Origin: Burkholderiales bacterium
Lineage (GTDB): Bacteria > Pseudomonadota > Gammaproteobacteria > Burkholderiales > Casimicrobiaceae
Assembly (NCBI GenBank): GCA_025352105.1
Contig: JANXUB010000188.1
Span: forward strand, 1-34,074
DNA length: 34,074 bases
Direction of reading: 5' to 3'
Shown: positions 21,474-28,940 of the stretch, one piece after another
How positions within the stretch are numbered: the first letter of the stretch is position 1
Layout: each line of letters starts with the position of its first letter
Notes under the pieces: model-generated
Told to the model about the DNA's origin: nothing
The model's database searches: none
The model's input: only the letters and a program-made list of their open reading frames with translations
Translations under genes and position numbers: made by a program

Positions 21474-21488
21474 TGGCACAGTGATTGC
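21474..21488 (+). promoter_or_regulatory. Sigma-54 (-24/-12) promoter of narK
   Basis: TGGCAC-AGTGA-TTGC matches the sigma-54 consensus TGGCAC-N5-TTGC at every fixed position. The predicted start of transcription is near 21500, about 39 bases before the narK ATG. Known biology: sigma-54 with NtrC drives nitrogen-scavenging genes in proteobacteria. Confidence 0.85.
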
Positions 21489-21491
21489 GAA

Positions 21492-21508
21492 GCTTGTGCA
21501 CCACAAGC
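21492..21508. promoter_or_regulatory. Perfect inverted repeat over the predicted narK transcription start
   Basis: GCTTGTG-CAC-CACAAGC is a perfect 7-bp inverted repeat with a 3-base centre. Its centre coincides with the predicted +1 of the sigma-54 promoter. It may be an operator. It is less likely to be an RNA hairpin, because only its 3' half would be transcribed. Confidence 0.5.
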
Positions 21509-21538: not shown

Positions 21539-22753
21539 ATGGCCTCTAAAGGGTTTTGGCAGGCGGGACATCGTCCCACCTTATTTGCCGCATTTTTATA
21601 TTTCGACTTAGCCTTCATGGTGTGGGTCATTCTTGGACCGCTCGGCGTACAAATCGCGAAAGACTTGCAGCTTGATGCCGCACAAAAAGGTCTCATGGTG
21701 GCCGTTCCAGTGCTGTCTGGTGCACTGTTGCGCATTGTGATGGGCGTGTTGGTCGATCATTTGAAACCAAAATTGACGGGGATGATTGCGCAATTGCTGG
21801 TGATTGCCGCGCTGTCGTGGGCGTGGCTCGCGGGCATTCATTCTTACGGAGAGGTGTTGTTCCTCGGCGTGCTGCTCGGCATCGCGGGTGCATCGTTCGC
21901 GGTGGCGCTGCCGCTGGCGTCGCGCTGGTATCCACCGGAGCATCAGGGCACCGCGCTCGGCATCGCCGGTGCCGGCAATTCAGGCACTGCGTTTGCAGCG
22001 CTCATCGCACCATCGCTGGCTGCTGCATTTGGCTGGGGTAATGTGTTTGGAATCGCGTTGATTCCACTCACGCTTGTACTGATTTTCTACATGATCGTCG
22101 CAAAAGACGCGCCCGATTGCCCACCACCCAAGCCGCTGACCGCGTATCTCGCCGTCCTCAAGGATAAGGATGCGTGGTGGTTCATGTTCTTCTACAGCGT
22201 GACCTTCGGTGGCTTCGTGGGCCTCGCCGCGAGCCTGACGATTTATTTCAATTCCGAATACGGTCTTGACGCGAAAACGGCGGGCTTTTTCACAGCGGCC
22301 TGCGTGTTTGCAGGTTCGTTGATGCGCCCGATTGGGGGCAACGTGGCTGATCGCATCGGTGGTATCAAGAGCCTGTCGGTGATGTATGTGGTGGCTGCGA
22401 TAGCGCTCGCAACCGTGAGCTTTCGTTTCGACTCGGCCTATGTTTCGTTAGGTATTTTCGTCATCGGCATGCTGGCGCTCGGCATGGGCAACGGCGCGGT
22501 GTTCCAGTTGGTGCCACAACGCTTCCGCCGGGAGATTGGCGTGATGACCGGGCTCGTGGGAATGGCGGGCGGTATTGGTGGTTTTTACCTTGCATCGTCG
22601 CTTGGGTACTCGAAAAAATTAACGGGCAGCTATCAGGCGGGCTTTCTGATTTTTGCCGCGCTGGCAATCGTCGCGCTCGTTGGGCTGACGCTGGTCAAGC
22701 AACGTTGGCGCACGACGTGGGGCAGTGCTGCGATGACCACCGCGAAGATTTGA
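21539..22753 (+). CDS. narK: Nitrate/nitrite transporter, MFS (NarK/NasA family)
   Basis: Inner-membrane major-facilitator protein for nitrate uptake or nitrate/nitrite exchange, 404 residues with about 12 spans. The N-terminus WQAGHRPTLFAAFLYFDLAFMVWVILGPLG is typical of this family. The nitrate signature in TM5 is AGAGNSGTAFAALIAPSLA; the TM11 counterpart is GLVGMAGGIGGFYL. Arg residues in PVLSGALLRIVMG and AGSLMRPIGG correspond to the substrate-binding arginines. It is divergent from nirB-nirD-nasA, which supports an assimilatory role, and it has a sigma-54 promoter. With nrtABD this gives the cell two nitrate uptake routes. Confidence 0.95.
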   Translation: MASKGFWQAGHRPTLFAAFLYFDLAFMVWVILGPLGVQIAKDLQLDAAQKGLMVAVPVLSGALLRIVMGVLVDHLKPKLTGMIAQLLVIAALSWAWLAGIHSYGEVLFLGVLLGIAGASFAVALPLASRWYPPEHQGTALGIAGAGNSGTAFAALIAPSLAAAFGWGNVFGIALIPLTLVLIFYMIVAKDAPDCPPPKPLTAYLAVLKDKDAWWFMFFYSVTFGGFVGLAASLTIYFNSEYGLDAKTAGFFTAACVFAGSLMRPIGGNVADRIGGIKSLSVMYVVAAIALATVSFRFDSAYVSLGIFVIGMLALGMGNGAVFQLVPQRFRREIGVMTGLVGMAGGIGGFYLASSLGYSKKLTGSYQAGFLIFAALAIVALVGLTLVKQRWRTTWGSAAMTTAKI

Positions 22754-22909: not shown

Positions 22910-24619
22910 ATGCCTCTTTCCGTCACCGTAGCCCACTTCAGCGCCACCGGCCCTCGCGCGCGCAACGAGGATTTCACTGGCTGCGTGACACCGCATGGCG
23001 CAGACCTCGCGAGCAAGGGCTTTGCAGCGGTTGTCGCCGACGGCGTCTCCGGCGCGGGCGGCGGTCGCGAGGCCGCCGAGCACTGCGCGCGCAACGTGCT
23101 GGCCGATTACTACGCCACGCCGGACACTTGGGAGGTGTCGCAGTCCCTCGACAAGATTTACAGCGCGCTGAACCGGTGGGTGCAAACGCAGGCCAAGGCC
23201 AGCCCCGACCTGATTGGCATGGCCACCACGCTCACCACGCTGGTGCTTCGCGGCAGCATGTATCACTTCGCCCATGTGGGGGATAGTCGAATCTATTTGT
23301 TGCGCGACGGCAATCTGCAAGCGCTCACCACGGATCACGTCTGGCAGCGCCCTGAGATGGAGCATGTGCTGACGCGTGCGGTGGGCCTCGATACATCAAT
23401 CACGGCCGATCACGGCTTTGGTTTGGCGCGCGTGGGGGATGTCTTTGCGCTGGTAAGCGACGGCGTATGGGCCGCGCTCGCAGCGCCAGACTTGCAGCGC
23501 GAGCTGGAACATGCCGCGACAGCGAAAGACTCGGTCGTTCACGTCGCGCGCAGCATCGTCGAATTGGCGCACCAGATGGGCGGCAAGGACAACGCTACGG
23601 CGCTCATCGTACGCGTGGACGATGTTGATGCCAATGCGCTGCGCGATGTGCTGCAAGCCGCGAAGGAATTGCCCGCGCTCCCGCCGCTTGAAGTGGGCCA
23701 GGCGTTCGACGGCTTCACGGTAGAAGAGCGAATTCATTTGTCACGCATCACGGTGCTGTACCGGGTTCGTGACGCACAGGGTCGCCAGCTTGCGATGAAG
23801 GCTTTGAGCCGTGAAGCCCACGCCGATGCGCATGAGCGCCTTGCGTTTGCGCATGAACGATGGCTCAACAAACGTGTCGTCGCCCGCTTTTTCGCGCAAA
23901 ACGTCGATCCGCCCGAGAACGCATCCGCCTCGTACAGCCTCAGCACTTTTCACAACGGCAAAACGCTGGCGCAACAGCAGAAGGACGGCGGACAAATCAC
24001 GATCCCTGAGGCGATCAAATACGCCGTCGAGCTGTCGCGTGCGGTCGGTGCGCTGCATCGGCGCAGCATCATTCATCGCGACATCAAGCCAGAGAACGTT
24101 CATCTGGGCGATGACGGTCAATTGCGCGTGCTCGATCTCGGTGTTGCGGTGTCCGGTTTCGAAGTGGCCGAGCTGTCCAACGCCACGCGAGCGGGCACGC
24201 CGTCCTACCTCGCACCGGAACTCTTCAACAACGCCGAACCGTCCGCACAAAGCGACATTTACGCCGTCGGCGTCACGCTCTATCACCTGCTCTCAAACAA
24301 ATATCCATACGGCGAAATCGAGCCGTTCCAGACGCCCAATTTTGGCGAGCCAACGCCACTCTCGCGCTGGCGTCCCGATTGTCCCGGCTGGTTTGAAAAC
24401 ATCATTTTGCGGGCGCTGGCGGCTGATCCGGCGGTGCGATTTGAAACGGCGGAAGAATTCTTGCTCGCAGTCGAGCAAGGCCCGTTGTCCGCCACCTCGA
24501 CACGGCAAAGTACGCTGCGGCAACCGCTCGCCACCCGCAACCGACTGCGCACATGGCAAGTGGTTGCCGTGCTGTCTATTATTTTGAATTTCGTGCTGCT
24601 TTATTTTCTAAACCGATAG
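22910..24619 (+). CDS. Bifunctional PP2C phosphatase / Ser-Thr protein kinase, membrane-anchored
   Basis: 569 residues. An N-terminal PP2C phosphatase domain (about 1-236) has all metal-binding acidic positions: RNED (Glu20/Asp21), VADGVSG (Asp44), SDGVW (Asp184) and GKDN (Asp227). A Hanks-type kinase domain (about 267-525) follows with AMK (Lys297), HRDIKPEN (Asp391, Asn396), DLG in place of DFG (Asp409) and AGTPSYLAPE. The glycine-rich loop is replaced by ERIHLSRITVLYRV, with no glycines. One C-terminal membrane helix (VVAVLSIILNFVLLYFL) anchors it. Comparable fusion genes sit in nitrate-assimilation clusters of pseudomonads and Burkholderiales; the target is not established. No good Shine-Dalgarno is seen. 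Confidence 0.93.
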   Translation: MPLSVTVAHFSATGPRARNEDFTGCVTPHGADLASKGFAAVVADGVSGAGGGREAAEHCARNVLADYYATPDTWEVSQSLDKIYSALNRWVQTQAKASPDLIGMATTLTTLVLRGSMYHFAHVGDSRIYLLRDGNLQALTTDHVWQRPEMEHVLTRAVGLDTSITADHGFGLARVGDVFALVSDGVWAALAAPDLQRELEHAATAKDSVVHVARSIVELAHQMGGKDNATALIVRVDDVDANALRDVLQAAKELPALPPLEVGQAFDGFTVEERIHLSRITVLYRVRDAQGRQLAMKALSREAHADAHERLAFAHERWLNKRVVARFFAQNVDPPENASASYSLSTFHNGKTLAQQQKDGGQITIPEAIKYAVELSRAVGALHRRSIIHRDIKPENVHLGDDGQLRVLDLGVAVSGFEVAELSNATRAGTPSYLAPELFNNAEPSAQSDIYAVGVTLYHLLSNKYPYGEIEPFQTPNFGEPTPLSRWRPDCPGWFENIILRALAADPAVRFETAEEFLLAVEQGPLSATSTRQSTLRQPLATRNRLRTWQVVAVLSIILNFVLLYFLNR

Positions 24620-24701: not shown

Positions 24702-25496
24702 CTACGCCGCCTTCTTCTGTTTCGAATACAGAAACTCAACCACTGCCTTGCGATAGTAGTGATAGTCCGTGTCTTCAGCGAGCTCAAGGCGGTCACGCGG
24801 TCGAGCAAGTTTCACGTCAAGAATTTCGCCGATGGTGGCTGATGGCCCGTTGGTCATCATGACGATTTTGTCGGACAACAATACCGCCTCATCAACATCG
24901 TGCGTGACCATCACTACCGTTGATTTAGTGTCGGCGACGATGCGCATCAGTTCGTCCTGCAAGTGAGCACGCGTGAGGGCATCGAGTGCACCGAACGGCT
25001 CGTCGAGCAACAAAACGGCGGGCTCAATGGATAGCGCTCGTGCAATGCCAACACGCTGTTTCATGCCGCCAGAAATTTCGTTCGGATGCTTGTGCGTTGC
25101 ATGCGTGAGGCCCACCATTTTGAGCGCGGCTTCGGTGCGTGCGATGAGTTGTGGTTTCTTTTCTGTCGCCGAAAAAACGCGCTCAACGGCAAGGTAGACG
25201 TTGTCGAAGCAGGTGAGCCACGGTAATAGTGAATGATTCTGAAATACGACGCCGCGATCAGGCCCCGGCCCTGAAATTTCACGACCGGCACAAACGAGCA
25301 CGCCGTTCGTGGCGACATCAAGACCGGCAATCAGATTAAGTAGCGTTGACTTACCGCAGCCCGAATGTCCGATCAGCGCGGTGAATTCACCGCGTTGAAC
25401 ACGCAGATTGATGTCGCGAATCGCGATGAATTCGCCCTGCTTGGTGTTGAACCGTTTGTCGACGTTGTCGACGACCAGATGAAATGGGTTTGCCAT
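24702..25496 (-). CDS. nrtD: Nitrate ABC transporter ATP-binding protein
   Basis: ATPase of the nitrate importer, 264 residues. Walker A GHSGCGKSTLL, signature ISGGMKQRVGIARAL, Walker B AVLLLDEPFGALD, and switch His in VTHDVDEA. The overall pattern (VFQNHSLLPWLTCFDNV; TNGPSATIGEILDVKLARPRDR) is that of the NrtD/SsuB/TauB group. It has no fused NrtA-like regulatory domain, so it is NrtD-like rather than cyanobacterial NrtC. It starts 21 bases after nrtB and ends the nrtA-nrtB-nrtD operon. Confidence 0.93.
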   Translation of the reverse strand: MANPFHLVVDNVDKRFNTKQGEFIAIRDINLRVQRGEFTALIGHSGCGKSTLLNLIAGLDVATNGVLVCAGREISGPGPDRGVVFQNHSLLPWLTCFDNVYLAVERVFSATEKKPQLIARTEAALKMVGLTHATHKHPNEISGGMKQRVGIARALSIEPAVLLLDEPFGALDALTRAHLQDELMRIVADTKSTVVMVTHDVDEAVLLSDKIVMMTNGPSATIGEILDVKLARPRDRLELAEDTDYHYYRKAVVEFLYSKQKKAA

Positions 25497-25517: not shown

Positions 25518-26459
25518 TCAGTCAAACTGGAATCGTTTAGCAATCCAGATCAGCGCCTGCTCAAGGAGGAGTCCAACGATGCCAATGGTGAAAATCGCGA
25601 TGATGATGTGCTCAACGACCAGATTGTTCCATTCGTCCCACAGCCAGAAGCCAATACCGACGCCGCCTGTGAGCATTTCTGCCGCGACGATCACGAGCCA
25701 TGCGACACCGATAGAGAGTTTCACGCCGGTCAACATATACGGCAGCACAGCGGGGAACAAAATTTTTGTAAACACTTTCCATTCGGAGAGATTCAACACT
25801 CTGGCGACGTTCAAATAATCTTGCGGAATGCGTTGCACACCGGTCGCGGTGTTGATGATCATCGGCCAGATGGAGCAGATGAAAATCACCCAGATCGCGG
25901 CGGGGTTGGCGGCCTTGAACACCATGAGTCCGATGGGCAACCAGGCGAGCGGTGACACCGGACGCAGCAAGCTGATGATCGGTGAAGTCATACGATTCAA
26001 ATACTCGAATCGTCCGATCATGAAACCCGCCGGAATGCCCACGAGCGCGGCCAGACCAAAGCCCAGACCGACACGCTGCAGCGACGCCAGAATATTCCAG
26101 CCAATGCCCTGATCGTTCGGGCCTTTTCGGTAGAAAGGATCGCTGAACAATTTCACCGCACTGTCCCACACTTTCACGGGGCCGGGAATTTGCGTAGCGA
26201 CGTGCGTGAGCCCCTGCCACAACAGCAGGAAAATCAGGATGCCGACGAGTCCGGGCACGACGCTTTGCACGAGGCCCGCGAGGCGATCACGGCGACGGCG
26301 AACGGCGAGTTGTGTTTGCGCCTCACGCTCGGCAGCGGCAGCGATCTGTTCTGCGGTCAAGGGAATAACTTCGACGGGCGCTTCCGGCGCGGGCATGGCG
26401 GGCACTGCCGCATCCCCCGAGGTGGTAAGCATCGCGTCGATGGTCAAAGATGCACTCAT
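25518..26459 (-). CDS. nrtB: Nitrate ABC transporter permease
   Basis: Inner-membrane channel subunit of the nitrate importer, 313 residues. An Ala/Glu-rich cytoplasmic N-terminus of about 65 residues precedes the first span (GLVGILIFLLLWQGL). The BPD-type permease core has the coupling motif around VARVLNLSEWKVFTKILFPAVLPYMLTGVKLSIGVAW, and SLLRPVSPLAWLPIGLMVF is typical of NrtB/TauC. It lies 29 bases after nrtA. The long charged N-terminal extension is unusual for the family but has similar composition to the neighbours. Confidence 0.93.
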   Translation of the reverse strand: MSASLTIDAMLTTSGDAAVPAMPAPEAPVEVIPLTAEQIAAAAEREAQTQLAVRRRRDRLAGLVQSVVPGLVGILIFLLLWQGLTHVATQIPGPVKVWDSAVKLFSDPFYRKGPNDQGIGWNILASLQRVGLGFGLAALVGIPAGFMIGRFEYLNRMTSPIISLLRPVSPLAWLPIGLMVFKAANPAAIWVIFICSIWPMIINTATGVQRIPQDYLNVARVLNLSEWKVFTKILFPAVLPYMLTGVKLSIGVAWLVIVAAEMLTGGVGIGFWLWDEWNNLVVEHIIIAIFTIGIVGLLLEQALIWIAKRFQFD

Positions 26460-26488: not shown

Positions 26489-27784
26489 CTACACCTTGAT
26501 CTTGAAACCATCGGCGTACGCCTTGGGGTTGCTGCCGTCCCAAACCACGCCATCAATCAGTTTGGAGGAGCGCATGTCGCTCTTTGGCACATTGACCTTC
26601 GCAGCAGCAGCCGCTTTCTTGTAGATGTCGACTTTGTTGATCGACTTGGCCACGCCCATATAGTCTGGGTGCTCCTTGAGCAGGCCCCAACGCTTGTGCT
26701 GCGTGAGGAACCACATGCCATCTGACAAGTAAGGGAAGTTCGTCGCGCCGTCTTTGTGGAATTTCATCGCATTGGCGTCAGTCCATTTTTTGCCGTTACC
26801 GTTGTCGTAATTGCCTTCCCAGCGATCTTCAATCACTTCGACTGCGGTGTTGACGTAGGACTTGTCGGCGAGAATCGTTGCTGTCTTTTTCTTGTCGACT
26901 TCCTGATCGATGAAGCGCGAGGCTTCAAGAATGGCCGCCACCATCGCGCGTGCAGTATTTGGGTACTTTTTAGTGAATTCGTCGGTGGTTCCGAGGACCT
27001 TTTCGGGGTGATCGGCCCAGATGTCCTGAGTGGTCGTAGCGGTAAATCCAATCTTGTCGAAAATCGCGCGTGCGTTCCATGGCTCACCGACGCAATAGCC
27101 GTCCATATTGCCGACGCGCATGTTGGCAACCATCTGTGGCGGCGGCACCGTGATCACTTTCGCGTCCTGCATCGGGTTAATGCCATTCGCTGCGAGCCAG
27201 TAATACAGCCACATCGCGTGCGTGCCGGTCGGGAAGGTTTGCGCGAAGGTGTATTCACGCTTCTCTTTTTTCATGAGGGCGGCAAGCGATGGCCCGTCGA
27301 TGGCTCCTTTGTCTTTCAGCTGATTGCTGATGGTGATGGCCTGTCCGTTGTTGTTCAAGGTCATCAACACCGCCATGTCCTTTTTCGGCCCGCCGATGCC
27401 CAGATGCACGCCGTAAACAAGGCCGTAGAGAACGTGGGCTGCATCAAGTTCTCCGTTCACCAGTTTGTCGCGTACAGACGCCCAGCTCGATTCTTTGGTG
27501 GCGATGATTTTGATGCCGTATTTCTCGTCAAGCTTCAACACCGAGGCCATGACTACGCTCGCGCAATCGGTCAGCGGGATGAAGCCAATCTTGACTTCCT
27601 TTTTCTCCGGCGCGTCGGAGCCTTGCGCCCATGCGCCCTGGCGAACGAGCGCTGGCACCAGTGACATCAAACTGGCGGCACCTGCGGCTTGTACGAGCGT
27701 CCGACGCGCGGCTGACTCCGGTTGATCGAGGCGCGACGACTTGTCTGTTTCGGCAATGGCTGGGAACTGGGGCACAAGACGCAT
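26489..27784 (-). CDS. nrtA: Nitrate ABC transporter substrate-binding protein with Tat-like signal
   Basis: Periplasmic nitrate-binding protein, 431 residues from the ATG at 27784. A GGAG Shine-Dalgarno lies 9 bases before this ATG. The longer frame to 27832 would begin inside the leader terminator, so it is rejected. The signal has a twin-arginine motif, ARRTLVQAAG, then AASLMSLVPALV and a site near AWAQG, which suggests Tat export. Mature features are VKIGFIPLTDCASVVMA, HVLYGLVYGVHLGIGGPKKDMAVLMTLNNNGQAIT and GYCVGEPWNARAI, as in NrtA/CmpA. It could in principle also sense nitrate like the related NasS, but NasS lacks a signal peptide. Confidence 0.94.
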   Translation of the reverse strand: MRLVPQFPAIAETDKSSRLDQPESAARRTLVQAAGAASLMSLVPALVRQGAWAQGSDAPEKKEVKIGFIPLTDCASVVMASVLKLDEKYGIKIIATKESSWASVRDKLVNGELDAAHVLYGLVYGVHLGIGGPKKDMAVLMTLNNNGQAITISNQLKDKGAIDGPSLAALMKKEKREYTFAQTFPTGTHAMWLYYWLAANGINPMQDAKVITVPPPQMVANMRVGNMDGYCVGEPWNARAIFDKIGFTATTTQDIWADHPEKVLGTTDEFTKKYPNTARAMVAAILEASRFIDQEVDKKKTATILADKSYVNTAVEVIEDRWEGNYDNGNGKKWTDANAMKFHKDGATNFPYLSDGMWFLTQHKRWGLLKEHPDYMGVAKSINKVDIYKKAAAAAKVNVPKSDMRSSKLIDGVVWDGSNPKAYADGFKIKV

Positions 27785-27800
27785 AAAAATGAACTCCGCA

Positions 27801-27840
27801 AAAGAAAAAGGGGCGCGCGACCTTTCGATCACGAGCCCCT
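27801..27840 (-). terminator. Intrinsic terminator in the nrtA leader
   Basis: On the minus strand, AGGGGC/GCCCCT (6 bp) and an inner CGTGATC/GGTCGCG (7 bp with two G-T pairs), separated by a single T/C mismatch, close on a GAAA tetraloop and are followed by TTTTTCTTTT. It stands 17 bases before the nrtA ATG with no gene ending there, which marks it as a leader attenuator. Confidence 0.9.
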
Positions 27841-27908
27841 GTGCTCAAAGTAATAAAGCTAGTTGTTCGGACTGGAGAGACTGTTGCGATCGTCATTGAT
27901 CGCCACAG
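27833..27908 (-). promoter_or_regulatory. ANTAR-target leader RNA: two A1/G4 hexaloop hairpins
   Basis: Hairpin P1 (27881-27908): CTGT/ACAG, one G/A mismatch, GCGATC/GATCGC and the hexaloop AATGAC. Hairpin P2 (27833-27846): GAGC/GCTC with the hexaloop ACAGGG. Both loops have A at position 1 and G at position 4, the known recognition pattern of ANTAR proteins. P2 contains the whole 5' strand AGGGGC of the terminator (27835-27840), so P2 and the terminator cannot form together. The ANTAR protein gene nasT lies just upstream. Confidence 0.85.
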
Positions 27909-27917
27909 GGCTACTTA

Positions 27918-27932
27918 GCGAAAGTCGTGCCA
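27918..27932 (-). promoter_or_regulatory. Sigma-54 (-24/-12) promoter of nrtABD
   Basis: TGGCAC-GACTT-TCGC (minus strand) matches TGGCAC-N5-TTGC with a single change. The predicted start near 27906 falls at the 5' foot of hairpin P1, giving a leader of about 122 nt. Confidence 0.75.
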
Positions 27933-27973: not shown

Positions 27974-27988
27974 GCACCGCATTTGTGC
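27974..27988 (-). promoter_or_regulatory. NtrC-like binding site upstream of nrtA
   Basis: GCACAAATGCGGTGC (minus strand) has GC-N11-GC spacing with GCAC and GGTGC half-sites, matching the NtrC pattern GCACCA-N3-TGGTGC. It lies about 42 bases upstream of the -24 element. A second repeat, GTGCA-N6-TGCAC, is at 27944-27959. Confidence 0.55.
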
Positions 27989-28011: not shown

Positions 28012-28587
28012 TTACGTAGCACTGTTTGCGAGCACGCGCCCGGCCGCCTCGGCAATCGAGCAACGCGCCTGCATGGCGTGCGTTCGCAGGAGTGCGTAGG
28101 CGTCGGGCTCACTCATGCCACGGCGGCGTAGCAGCGCTTTGGCCTGCGCGATGGCACGCTCGCTGGTGACCTTTTGCTCTGCTTGCCGGCGCGCTTCCGC
28201 CAGCTGCGCAAACTCGTGCTGGTCAAGCTTGAAGCGCTCCAGCGCCACAGCAATCACCGAGCGCAATCGTTTGGTGTTCAGCCCCGCCACGACATAGGCC
28301 GACACGCGCGCCTGCATGGCCGAGCGCATGGCGATCGGGTCATCGTTTTCGGTGAAGACGACAATCGGGCGCTCGCGAAACTGCGAAACCACGCACACCT
28401 GCTCCATCACATCACGCGCTGCGTCATCTGACGCAATCAGGATCAGTTCCGGGTTCCAGCGCACGATTTCGTCCTGCAGGGTCAGCGCGTTGACCGGAAC
28501 GCTGCGCACGTTGTAGCCGTGCGCGGCGAGCACCGATTCAACGGCGGGCAAATCATGCTGAGTGTCGTGAAGAAGCAGAACTCGCAA
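28012..28587 (-). CDS. nasT: ANTAR-domain antitermination regulator NasT
   Basis: RNA-binding regulator of nitrate assimilation. The C-terminal ANTAR domain is clear: ERAIAQAKALLRRRGMSEPDAYALLRTHAMQARCSIAEAAGRVL. The N-terminal half has a receiver fold (LRVLLLHDTQ... PELILIASDD...), but the position where the phospho-acceptor Asp is expected appears to be Ala (residue 52 from this start), and the usual receiver Lys is not seen in AYVVAGLN. I chose the TTG at 28587 because LRVLLLHD is the normal family start (191 residues). The frame is open to a TTG at 28635, and no in-frame ATG exists. It lies 227 bases upstream of nrtA, with the target leader between them. Confidence 0.88.
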   Translation of the reverse strand: MRVLLLHDTQHDLPAVESVLAAHGYNVRSVPVNALTLQDEIVRWNPELILIASDDAARDVMEQVCVVSQFRERPIVVFTENDDPIAMRSAMQARVSAYVVAGLNTKRLRSVIAVALERFKLDQHEFAQLAEARRQAEQKVTSERAIAQAKALLRRRGMSEPDAYALLRTHAMQARCSIAEAAGRVLANSAT

Positions 28588-28940
28588 AGCGACGACCCAT
28601 TTTTCGCACTTAATCGGGAAGATCAAGCTGCACAAACGTACTTATGCTGCATCACAGCAAAATTCGTGCAATGGGGCGACAGGCCGGGTGTCAACGAAGC
28701 GTTTTTTAATCAGCTTTGGGTTGAGTCAGCTTTTCCACGCGGGCTATCGACCGTTAATGAGATTAGTCGACTTAGCACGTATATGCCACCTACCCCACGT
28801 TTGAAAGGGGTTTCGCAGAGAAAGTCGTTGAAACTACGTCTCCCCTGTCGCAATTCAGCGACGGCTGTGTGACGATGTTGCAACAGAGACGTAACTGATG
28901 GGATTTGCCTCGCTACGAGCTTTTTTTGCTCAATTTCCTA
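28588..28940. other. Intergenic stretch upstream of nasT
   Basis: No gene is supported here. On the minus strand TTGCAC-GAATT-TTGC (28657-28671) differs from the sigma-54 consensus by one base, but the change is in the important GG pair. It would give nasT a leader of about 60 nt, with a GCTG...CAGC hairpin near the start. The remainder (about 28690-28920) is moderately AT-rich and shows nothing recognisable. Confidence 0.35.

Follow-up and report, generated by a model that had tools for sequence, protein, structure and literature searches.

For the ANTAR proteins EutV and NasR, A1/G4 hexaloops with C:G closing pairs are the determinants reported in the accessible parts of two studies (PMC3369931, PMC7496416). 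In the model put forward for EutV, NasR and AmiR, as outlined in the available excerpts, a second hairpin held by the protein competes with a terminator that forms by default (PMC3369931, PMC8934654, PMC7496416, PMC3369936). The linkers of the E. faecalis eut leaders are given there as 5–12 nt (PMC3369931). Induction by EutV reportedly dropped sharply in vivo at a linker of 14 nt and was abolished in vitro by an additional 20 nt (excerpts of PMC3369931 and PMC8934654). The definition of an ANTAR leader names a "variable linker" between the stems and, in the portion of the paper at hand, gives no limit (PMC3369931). An actinobacterial ANTAR survey accepted linkers of 2–25 nt according to its accessible text (PMC8164766), and Ramesh et al. 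reported ANTAR RNA matches in Burkholderia (excerpt of PMC3369931). Here, we describe a candidate leader of this type between nasT and nrtA in a member of the Burkholderiales.

Structure of the leader and its locus

The window analyzed here is a stretch of 34,074 nucleotides from the draft genome of a Burkholderiales bacterium (G000; 4.5 Mb, 231 contigs, 92.6% complete). The nasT gene (28012–28635, minus strand) encodes a protein with a receiver-like domain and a C-terminal ANTAR domain (Pfam ANTAR, 41 bits; cut-off, 27.3). Its real start codon is probably 3' of the listed TTG (28635) because the alignments of most relatives begin at approximately residues 8–17. The original prediction placed NasT directly upstream of the leader, and the adjacent gene is indeed the only ANTAR match in a profile search of G000. 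The nrtABD genes were also correctly placed behind the leader. On the minus strand, nrtA (26489–27784, ATG at 27784; Pfam NMT1_2 family, 343–344.8 bits; Tat-like RR signal) is followed by the ntrB-type permease gene nrtB (25518–26459; TIGR01183, above the cut-off) and the ntrCD-type ATPase gene nrtD (24702–25496; TIGR01184, above the cut-off) of a nitrate ABC transporter. Beyond nrtABD, nirB (above the cut-off) is located farther along the window. A NarK-family transporter gene (21539–22753; 295 bits against a cut-off of 311.7) is on the plus strand, and between narK and nrtD is a plus-strand gene (22910–24619) encoding PP2C phosphatase and Ser/Thr kinase domains. A sigma54-like sequence, TGGCACAGTGATTGCG (21474–21489, plus strand), is located 5' of the NarK-family gene and is followed by a small hairpin, GCTTGTG-CAC-CACAAGC (21492–21508); no hexaloop leader was found 5' of this gene.

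From nasT to nrtA, the minus strand carries an NtrC-like palindrome, a sigma54-type box, a hairpin (P1), a linker, a second hairpin (P2) overlapping a terminator, and a U-tract. The palindrome GCAC-N7-GTGC (27974–27988) is NtrC-like in form and, putatively, in function. Similarly, TGGCACGACTTTCGCT (GG-N10-GC, 27917–27932) is presumably a sigma54-type promoter, assigned by its consensus. P1, GCGATC[AATGAC]GATCGC (27886–27903), is a 6-bp hairpin that begins 13 nt past the promoter box. The linker (27885–27847), predicted to be about 39 nt long, is exactly 39 nt and has the conserved core GTCTCTCCAGTCCGAACAA. P2, GAGC[ACAGGG]GCTC (27833–27846), is a 4-bp hairpin, and a fifth T.G pair is possible. 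The hexaloops AATGAC and ACAGGG were read directly and placed by script; each has the A1 and G4 originally described, and each is closed by a C:G pair. The predicted intrinsic terminator, AGGGGC.T.CGTGATC-GAAA-GGTCGCG.C.GCCCCT (27840–27809), has the expected 6+7 bp with one T.C mismatch and a GAAA loop, and it is followed by the U-tract TTTTTCTTTT (27809–27800). The U-tract ends 15 nt before the nrtA ATG, not 17 as first stated. P2 and the terminator overlap and are mutually exclusive structures, as proposed. However, P2 does not include the entire 5' strand of the terminator: 8 of the 14 nt are inside P2 (9 counting the T.G pair), and the 5' arm of P2, GAGC, is outside the terminator. Compared with the dual-hexaloop definition of PMC3369931, both hairpins have at least 3 bp and A1/G4 hexaloops, P2 overlaps the terminator, and an ANTAR protein is encoded in the genome.

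Both strands of the window were scanned for the full geometry, namely, an A1/G4 hexaloop overlapping a terminator of at least 9 bp with TTTT and a second A1/G4 hairpin of at least 5 bp up to 60 nt upstream. The only site was this leader, and 3 sites were found in 60 dinucleotide-shuffled windows. Folding of a 135-nt stretch containing the leader gave a z value of −2.68, and 3 of 200 shuffles were at least as stable. No Rfam family reached its gathering score in the window; the only three matches at E ≤ 5 were all far below it, and none was credible for the leader. The leader covariance model R1 matched G000 once, at the leader under study; a differently built leader could escape it. A second leader was not found with R1 at E ≤ 1 among the 150 of 2372 first-look candidates scored.

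Conservation of the leader within the genus

The family search was run on 64 genomes, including 17 from the genus of the window. A NasT match at E ≤ 0.001 was obtained in 15 of the 64 genomes, including 13 of the 17 genus members. Rows were dropped where the leader reads N (L025), where the NasT match is partial or at a contig end (L026, L029), or where the match is weak (L027). Leaders were readable at 13 loci in 12 genomes of the genus. G017 contributed two nasT-leader-nrtA copies (L014, L028), whose NasT proteins are 92–93% identical to that of the window. P1, P2, the terminator and the sigma54-type box were present in all 13 leaders, with P1 beginning 8–16 nt after the box; P2 was located by script through its GAGC, which all 13 contain. 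A1/G4 was retained in both loops of 12 of the 13 leaders; the exception is L021, whose P2 loop, GCCGGG, lacks A1. In L020, the contig ends before nrtA is recognizable, and this locus is therefore shown as a nasT leader, not as a nasT-nrtA leader.

Twelve leaders were included in the alignment (A2), from which L019 was omitted with its 86-nt linker. In the alignment, 96% of the cells pair, and at most 53% do so once the partners are slid by 1–3 columns. Compensatory changes were found in the relatives: both partners had changed in 4 of 6 pairs of P1 (12 cells) and in 7 of 13 pairs of the terminator. The covariation score and the count of double-change cells were equalled by none of 500 shuffles, as was the number of pairs with double changes in P1 plus the terminator, while the four such pairs in P1 plus P2 were equalled by 57 of 500; the relatedness of the rows is a caveat to each of these comparisons. 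The four core pairs of P2 are invariant; therefore, P2 is without covariation support. Its 5' arm is identical in 12 of 12 aligned leaders, and the T of its GCTC is kept, although it is opposite a C in the terminator of the window. The computed stability across the genus leaders is −3.9 to −4.9 kcal/mol for P2 and −16.1 to −27.9 kcal/mol for the terminator stretch. The hairpins, loops, terminator and promoter are thus kept in close relatives, and the coordinates, the loops and the interpretation of the original prediction, an ANTAR-type antitermination leader, are supported.

Linker, NasT and NasS in the genus and in other Burkholderiales

The linker is 28–49 nt long in 12 genus leaders and 86 nt long in L019. 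The 39 nt of the window, and the genus range of 28–86 nt, exceed the 2–25 nt curation rule used for Actinobacteria (PMC8164766). For P. denitrificans, an excerpt of PMC5424462 places the leader hairpins HI and HII 137 and 91 bp, respectively, before nasA. The distance between them is thus 46 bp, and a widely spaced pair may therefore be less unusual for NasT. In L018, the added length is a self-contained hairpin. The mean pairwise identity of the linker is 82% among seven close loci, compared with 52–60% in three flanking stretches, and 61% among all 13 leaders, compared with 49–52% in the flanks. The motif CTCTCYA is present in 12 of 13 genus leaders (absent from L019) and in none of 51 other Burkholderiales leaders, which were picked by a different P2 type. 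In most constrained folds, the linker is wholly or mostly unpaired, with L019 and L022 as exceptions.

Several candidate pairings were rejected. Pairing of the linker GTCTCT with the P2 loop region is wobble-feasible in several leaders and approximately at chance level by a rough estimate. Pairing of the linker CTCC with the ribosome site lacks its GGAG partner in L020 and L021 (by eye). CCCTGT, just 5' of P1, can pair with the P2 loop ACAGGG in the window, but this is not kept in L014 and L028 (by eye) and was attributed to chance.

NasT aligns along its receiver and ANTAR parts to Rv1626 and EutV, and its C-terminal half aligns to AmiR. No receiver family was matched in Pfam at E ≤ 0.001, and the receiver-like part was recognized by alignment to Rv1626 and other receivers. 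Thus, of the two parts required of NasT in a NasS-NasT system, the ANTAR domain was identified by Pfam and the receiver by alignment only. By alignment, with the EutV chain numbering offset by 2 to match PMC8934654, Y164, R168, M172 and R175 of EutV correspond to Y, R, M and R in NasT, and N173, R177, K143 and residue 147 correspond to Q, S, R and Q. The receiver aspartate position is occupied by A in 13 of 13 genus loci and by D in most fetched Burkholderiales NasT proteins. A is likewise found in L092, L112, L139, L141 and L155, and some others have G, E, Q or R at this position; therefore, loss of D also occurs outside the genus. All 13 genus proteins, and 2 of the 64 others that could be read, have one residue fewer in the ANTAR segment from AK to SE..AY; 16 of the 80 proteins were unreadable by this pattern and left out, and in four genus rows, in which the pattern began at an earlier A-R, 8 was counted from AK.

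A NasT match was found in 143 of 399 genomes of the order, and R1 matched 7 of the 399: six genus members and one further genome with a weak, partial match. Because R1 is nearly genus-bound, the wider survey relied on a pattern scan with looser rules, applied to 80 loci taken from NasT-bearing Burkholderiales genomes. The scan accepted a P2 only if its 3' arm was GTCC, GTCT or GTTC, and it therefore passed over the genus type GCTC. A P2/terminator of these types was present in 51 loci, and no leader was recognized in 29. Hexaloop hairpins both near (≤21 nt from P2) and far were found in 18 of the 51 leaders, near only in 15, far only in 12 and none in 6; these classes are approximate, as some "far only" or "none" leaders hold a weaker near hexaloop (L154, L099). 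A near hexaloop hairpin is thus present in 33 of the 51, and the 18 leaders of the first class (e.g., L083, L094, L138, L139 and L151) have three A1/G4 hexaloop hairpins, including P2. A1/G4 hairpins were located within 14 nt of P2 in 25 leaders, at 25–44 nt in 15 and at 45–69 nt in 14; the background of such hairpins (≥5 bp) elsewhere in these loci is 0.43 per kb, or 0.01 per 25 nt. In L104, the near hairpin about 10 nt upstream of P2 seemingly has a pentaloop, CCGACC-ATGAT-GGTCGG, as if one hexaloop base were lost. In other orders of the class, 24 of 40 loci yielded a leader, with a near hairpin alone in 13, a far one alone in 5 and both in 6; the 16 loci where none was recognized were dropped. 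The same scan found no near hexaloop hairpin in the genus leaders, where the far and terminator hairpins were seen; L021 fails the A1 rule of the scan and was read by eye.

The signal-less cytoplasmic NasS of the NasS-NasT system was not found in G000, where NMT1_2 scored NrtA at 344.8 bits and the next proteins at 49.7, 35.9 and 34.8. Since G000 is a draft of 92.6% completeness, a gap could hide NasS. Of the 11 genus genomes in which NasT occurs together with a close NrtA, 8 showed no second homologue in a search with NrtA at E ≤ 0.001. The exceptions are G017, where two close NrtA copies each have a neighboring nasT of their own, and G015, with a weak second homologue; G010 has a second homologue of 34% with RR near the N-terminus. 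In 12 of the 80 fetched loci, a NasS-type gene (296–435 bits to NrtA) is directly behind nasT, and by eye 10 of the 12 products are signal-less and two (L101, L120) are ambiguous. An NrtA-type gene (≥577 bits, same strand, 123–896 nt behind) is found in 39 of the 80 loci. By eye, its product has a Tat-like RR signal in 33 and KR in 4; no signal was seen in L082, and it is not visible in L146. By hand count, a second homologue at E ≤ 1e-40 is absent from 28 and present in 11 of these 39 genomes, but at most four candidates were scored per genome, so NasS could be missed. In L089 and L099, a seemingly signal-less NrtA/NasS-like gene is located behind the leader, in the controlled operon and not directly beside nasT. 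Both nasS and nasT are described in Acidovorax citrulli, a member of the Burkholderiales, in an excerpt of PMC10052978, and the accessible part of PMC3795266 warns that nasS may be misannotated; both points argue against a simple rule. As NasS was not found, the published NasS-NasT circuit is not simply transferable to this locus.

Proposed mechanism and comparison with known systems

NasT-dependent antitermination of nrtABD is the best reading of the sequence, with a probability of approximately 0.9. A sigma54 promoter, probably activated by NtrC, would start a short leader RNA at about the base of P1. At sigma54 promoters, RNA starts approximately 12 nt after the −12 element; with the spacing of 8–16 nt from the box, P1 should therefore be about the first thing transcribed. 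By default, P1 would form, P2 would be too weak to hold, the terminator would form and transcription would end at about 27800. P2 is much weaker than the terminator by the computed energies; therefore, termination is the expected outcome by default, and P2 is expected to depend on a protein. Active NasT would bind the A1/G4 hexaloops of P1 and P2 and hold P2 closed. The closed P2 would remove the first 8 nt of the terminator 5' strand, and polymerase would read through into nrtABD. Nitrate is the probable signal. At the sequence level, the hairpins, their loops and overlap, their conservation, the promoter box and the neighboring ANTAR gene are all in place. Against this reading stand the 39-nt linker in view of the EutV linker limits, the invariance of P2, the lack of A1 in L021, the altered EutV-equivalent residues, the ANTAR segment shortened by one residue, the failure to find NasS and the nearly genus-bound R1.

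The terminator is downstream of nasT on the same strand and might simply end the nasT transcript, with the hexaloops being incidental. However, all 13 loci have a sigma54-type box separating nasT from the leader, the P1 pairs and loop bases are kept, and the P2 5' arm, which is of no use to a terminator, does not vary among the 12 aligned leaders. We therefore regard an ordinary intrinsic terminator as very improbable. Even less credit is given to an RNA that senses a small molecule or translation itself, as a riboswitch or leader peptide would, without NasT. The linker sequence is conserved as a ligand pocket would be, and an ATG lies inside the P1 loop of the window, but no Rfam family was matched at its gathering score, and the linker is mostly unpaired in the constrained folds apart from L019 and L022. 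A leader peptide starting in the P1 loop was rejected: the ATG is absent where this loop is AAAGGC or AACGGC (L015, L018, L019, L023), not every linker length is divisible by three, and the relevant frame contains a TGA in L018 (by eye).

A variant within NasT-dependent antitermination, and not exclusive of it, is that a third recognition element in the linker replaces the missing near hairpin. The linker identity among the seven close loci (82% against 52–60%), the distribution of CTCTCYA (12 of 13 against 0 of 51) and the shortened ANTAR segment (13 of 13 against 2 of 64) point to such an element. However, L019 lacks the motif, the identity over all 13 leaders is 61% against 49–52%, no structure or partner of the linker was found, common ancestry inflates conservation, and the 51 comparison leaders had been selected for another type of P2. 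This variant is possible but doubtful. More speculative and rather unlikely is a combined proposal, in which the NrtA precursor, Tat-exported and hence folded in the cytoplasm, would be a nitrate-sensitive antagonist of NasT, forming a feedback loop by the operon's own binding protein, and in which the near hexaloop would have been exchanged in the genus for a sequence-specific linker element read by the altered ANTAR domain.

Hexaloop spacing is part of the argument on how ANTAR dimers act, by simultaneous or successive binding; longer linkers hurt EutV. A natural family with linkers of 28–49 nt (86 nt in one), together with relatives with two or three differently spaced hexaloops, provides ready substrates for this question. 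In the genus, as in many of the sampled Burkholderiales that carry nasT and nrtA, no NasS was found, and how NasT learns of nitrate there is a directly testable question. In the open-licence literature, no description of a NasS-less NasT or of a three-hexaloop leader was found among the matches listed, as judged from titles and abstract openings.

Compared with the other Burkholderiales nasT leaders (L077–L156), the leader of the window shares the hexaloop hairpins, the P2 overlapping the terminator, the sigma54-type box present in most and, often, an nrtA with a Tat-like signal behind. It differs in P2, which is mostly GGAC[AANGGC]GTCC in those leaders and GAGC[ACAGGG]GCTC in the window, and many of them have a near hexaloop hairpin, whereas none was found in the genus. 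As in the NasS-NasT systems of Paracoccus, Bradyrhizobium, Azotobacter and Pseudomonas, a NasT-type regulator is encoded next to an operon for nitrate assimilation that has a leader; in the window, however, NasS was not found, the receiver aspartate is replaced by alanine, and the target is nrtABD. The eutP, nasF and amiE leaders, controlled by EutV, NasR and AmiR, likewise have two A1/G4 hexaloop hairpins, the second overlapping a terminator, and an ANTAR partner. The 39-nt linker of the window is conserved and longer than the 5–12 nt given for E. faecalis eut in the accessible text. With its long conserved linker, its lack of a near hairpin, its altered NasT and no NasS found, this leader is an uncommon form of a known mechanism.
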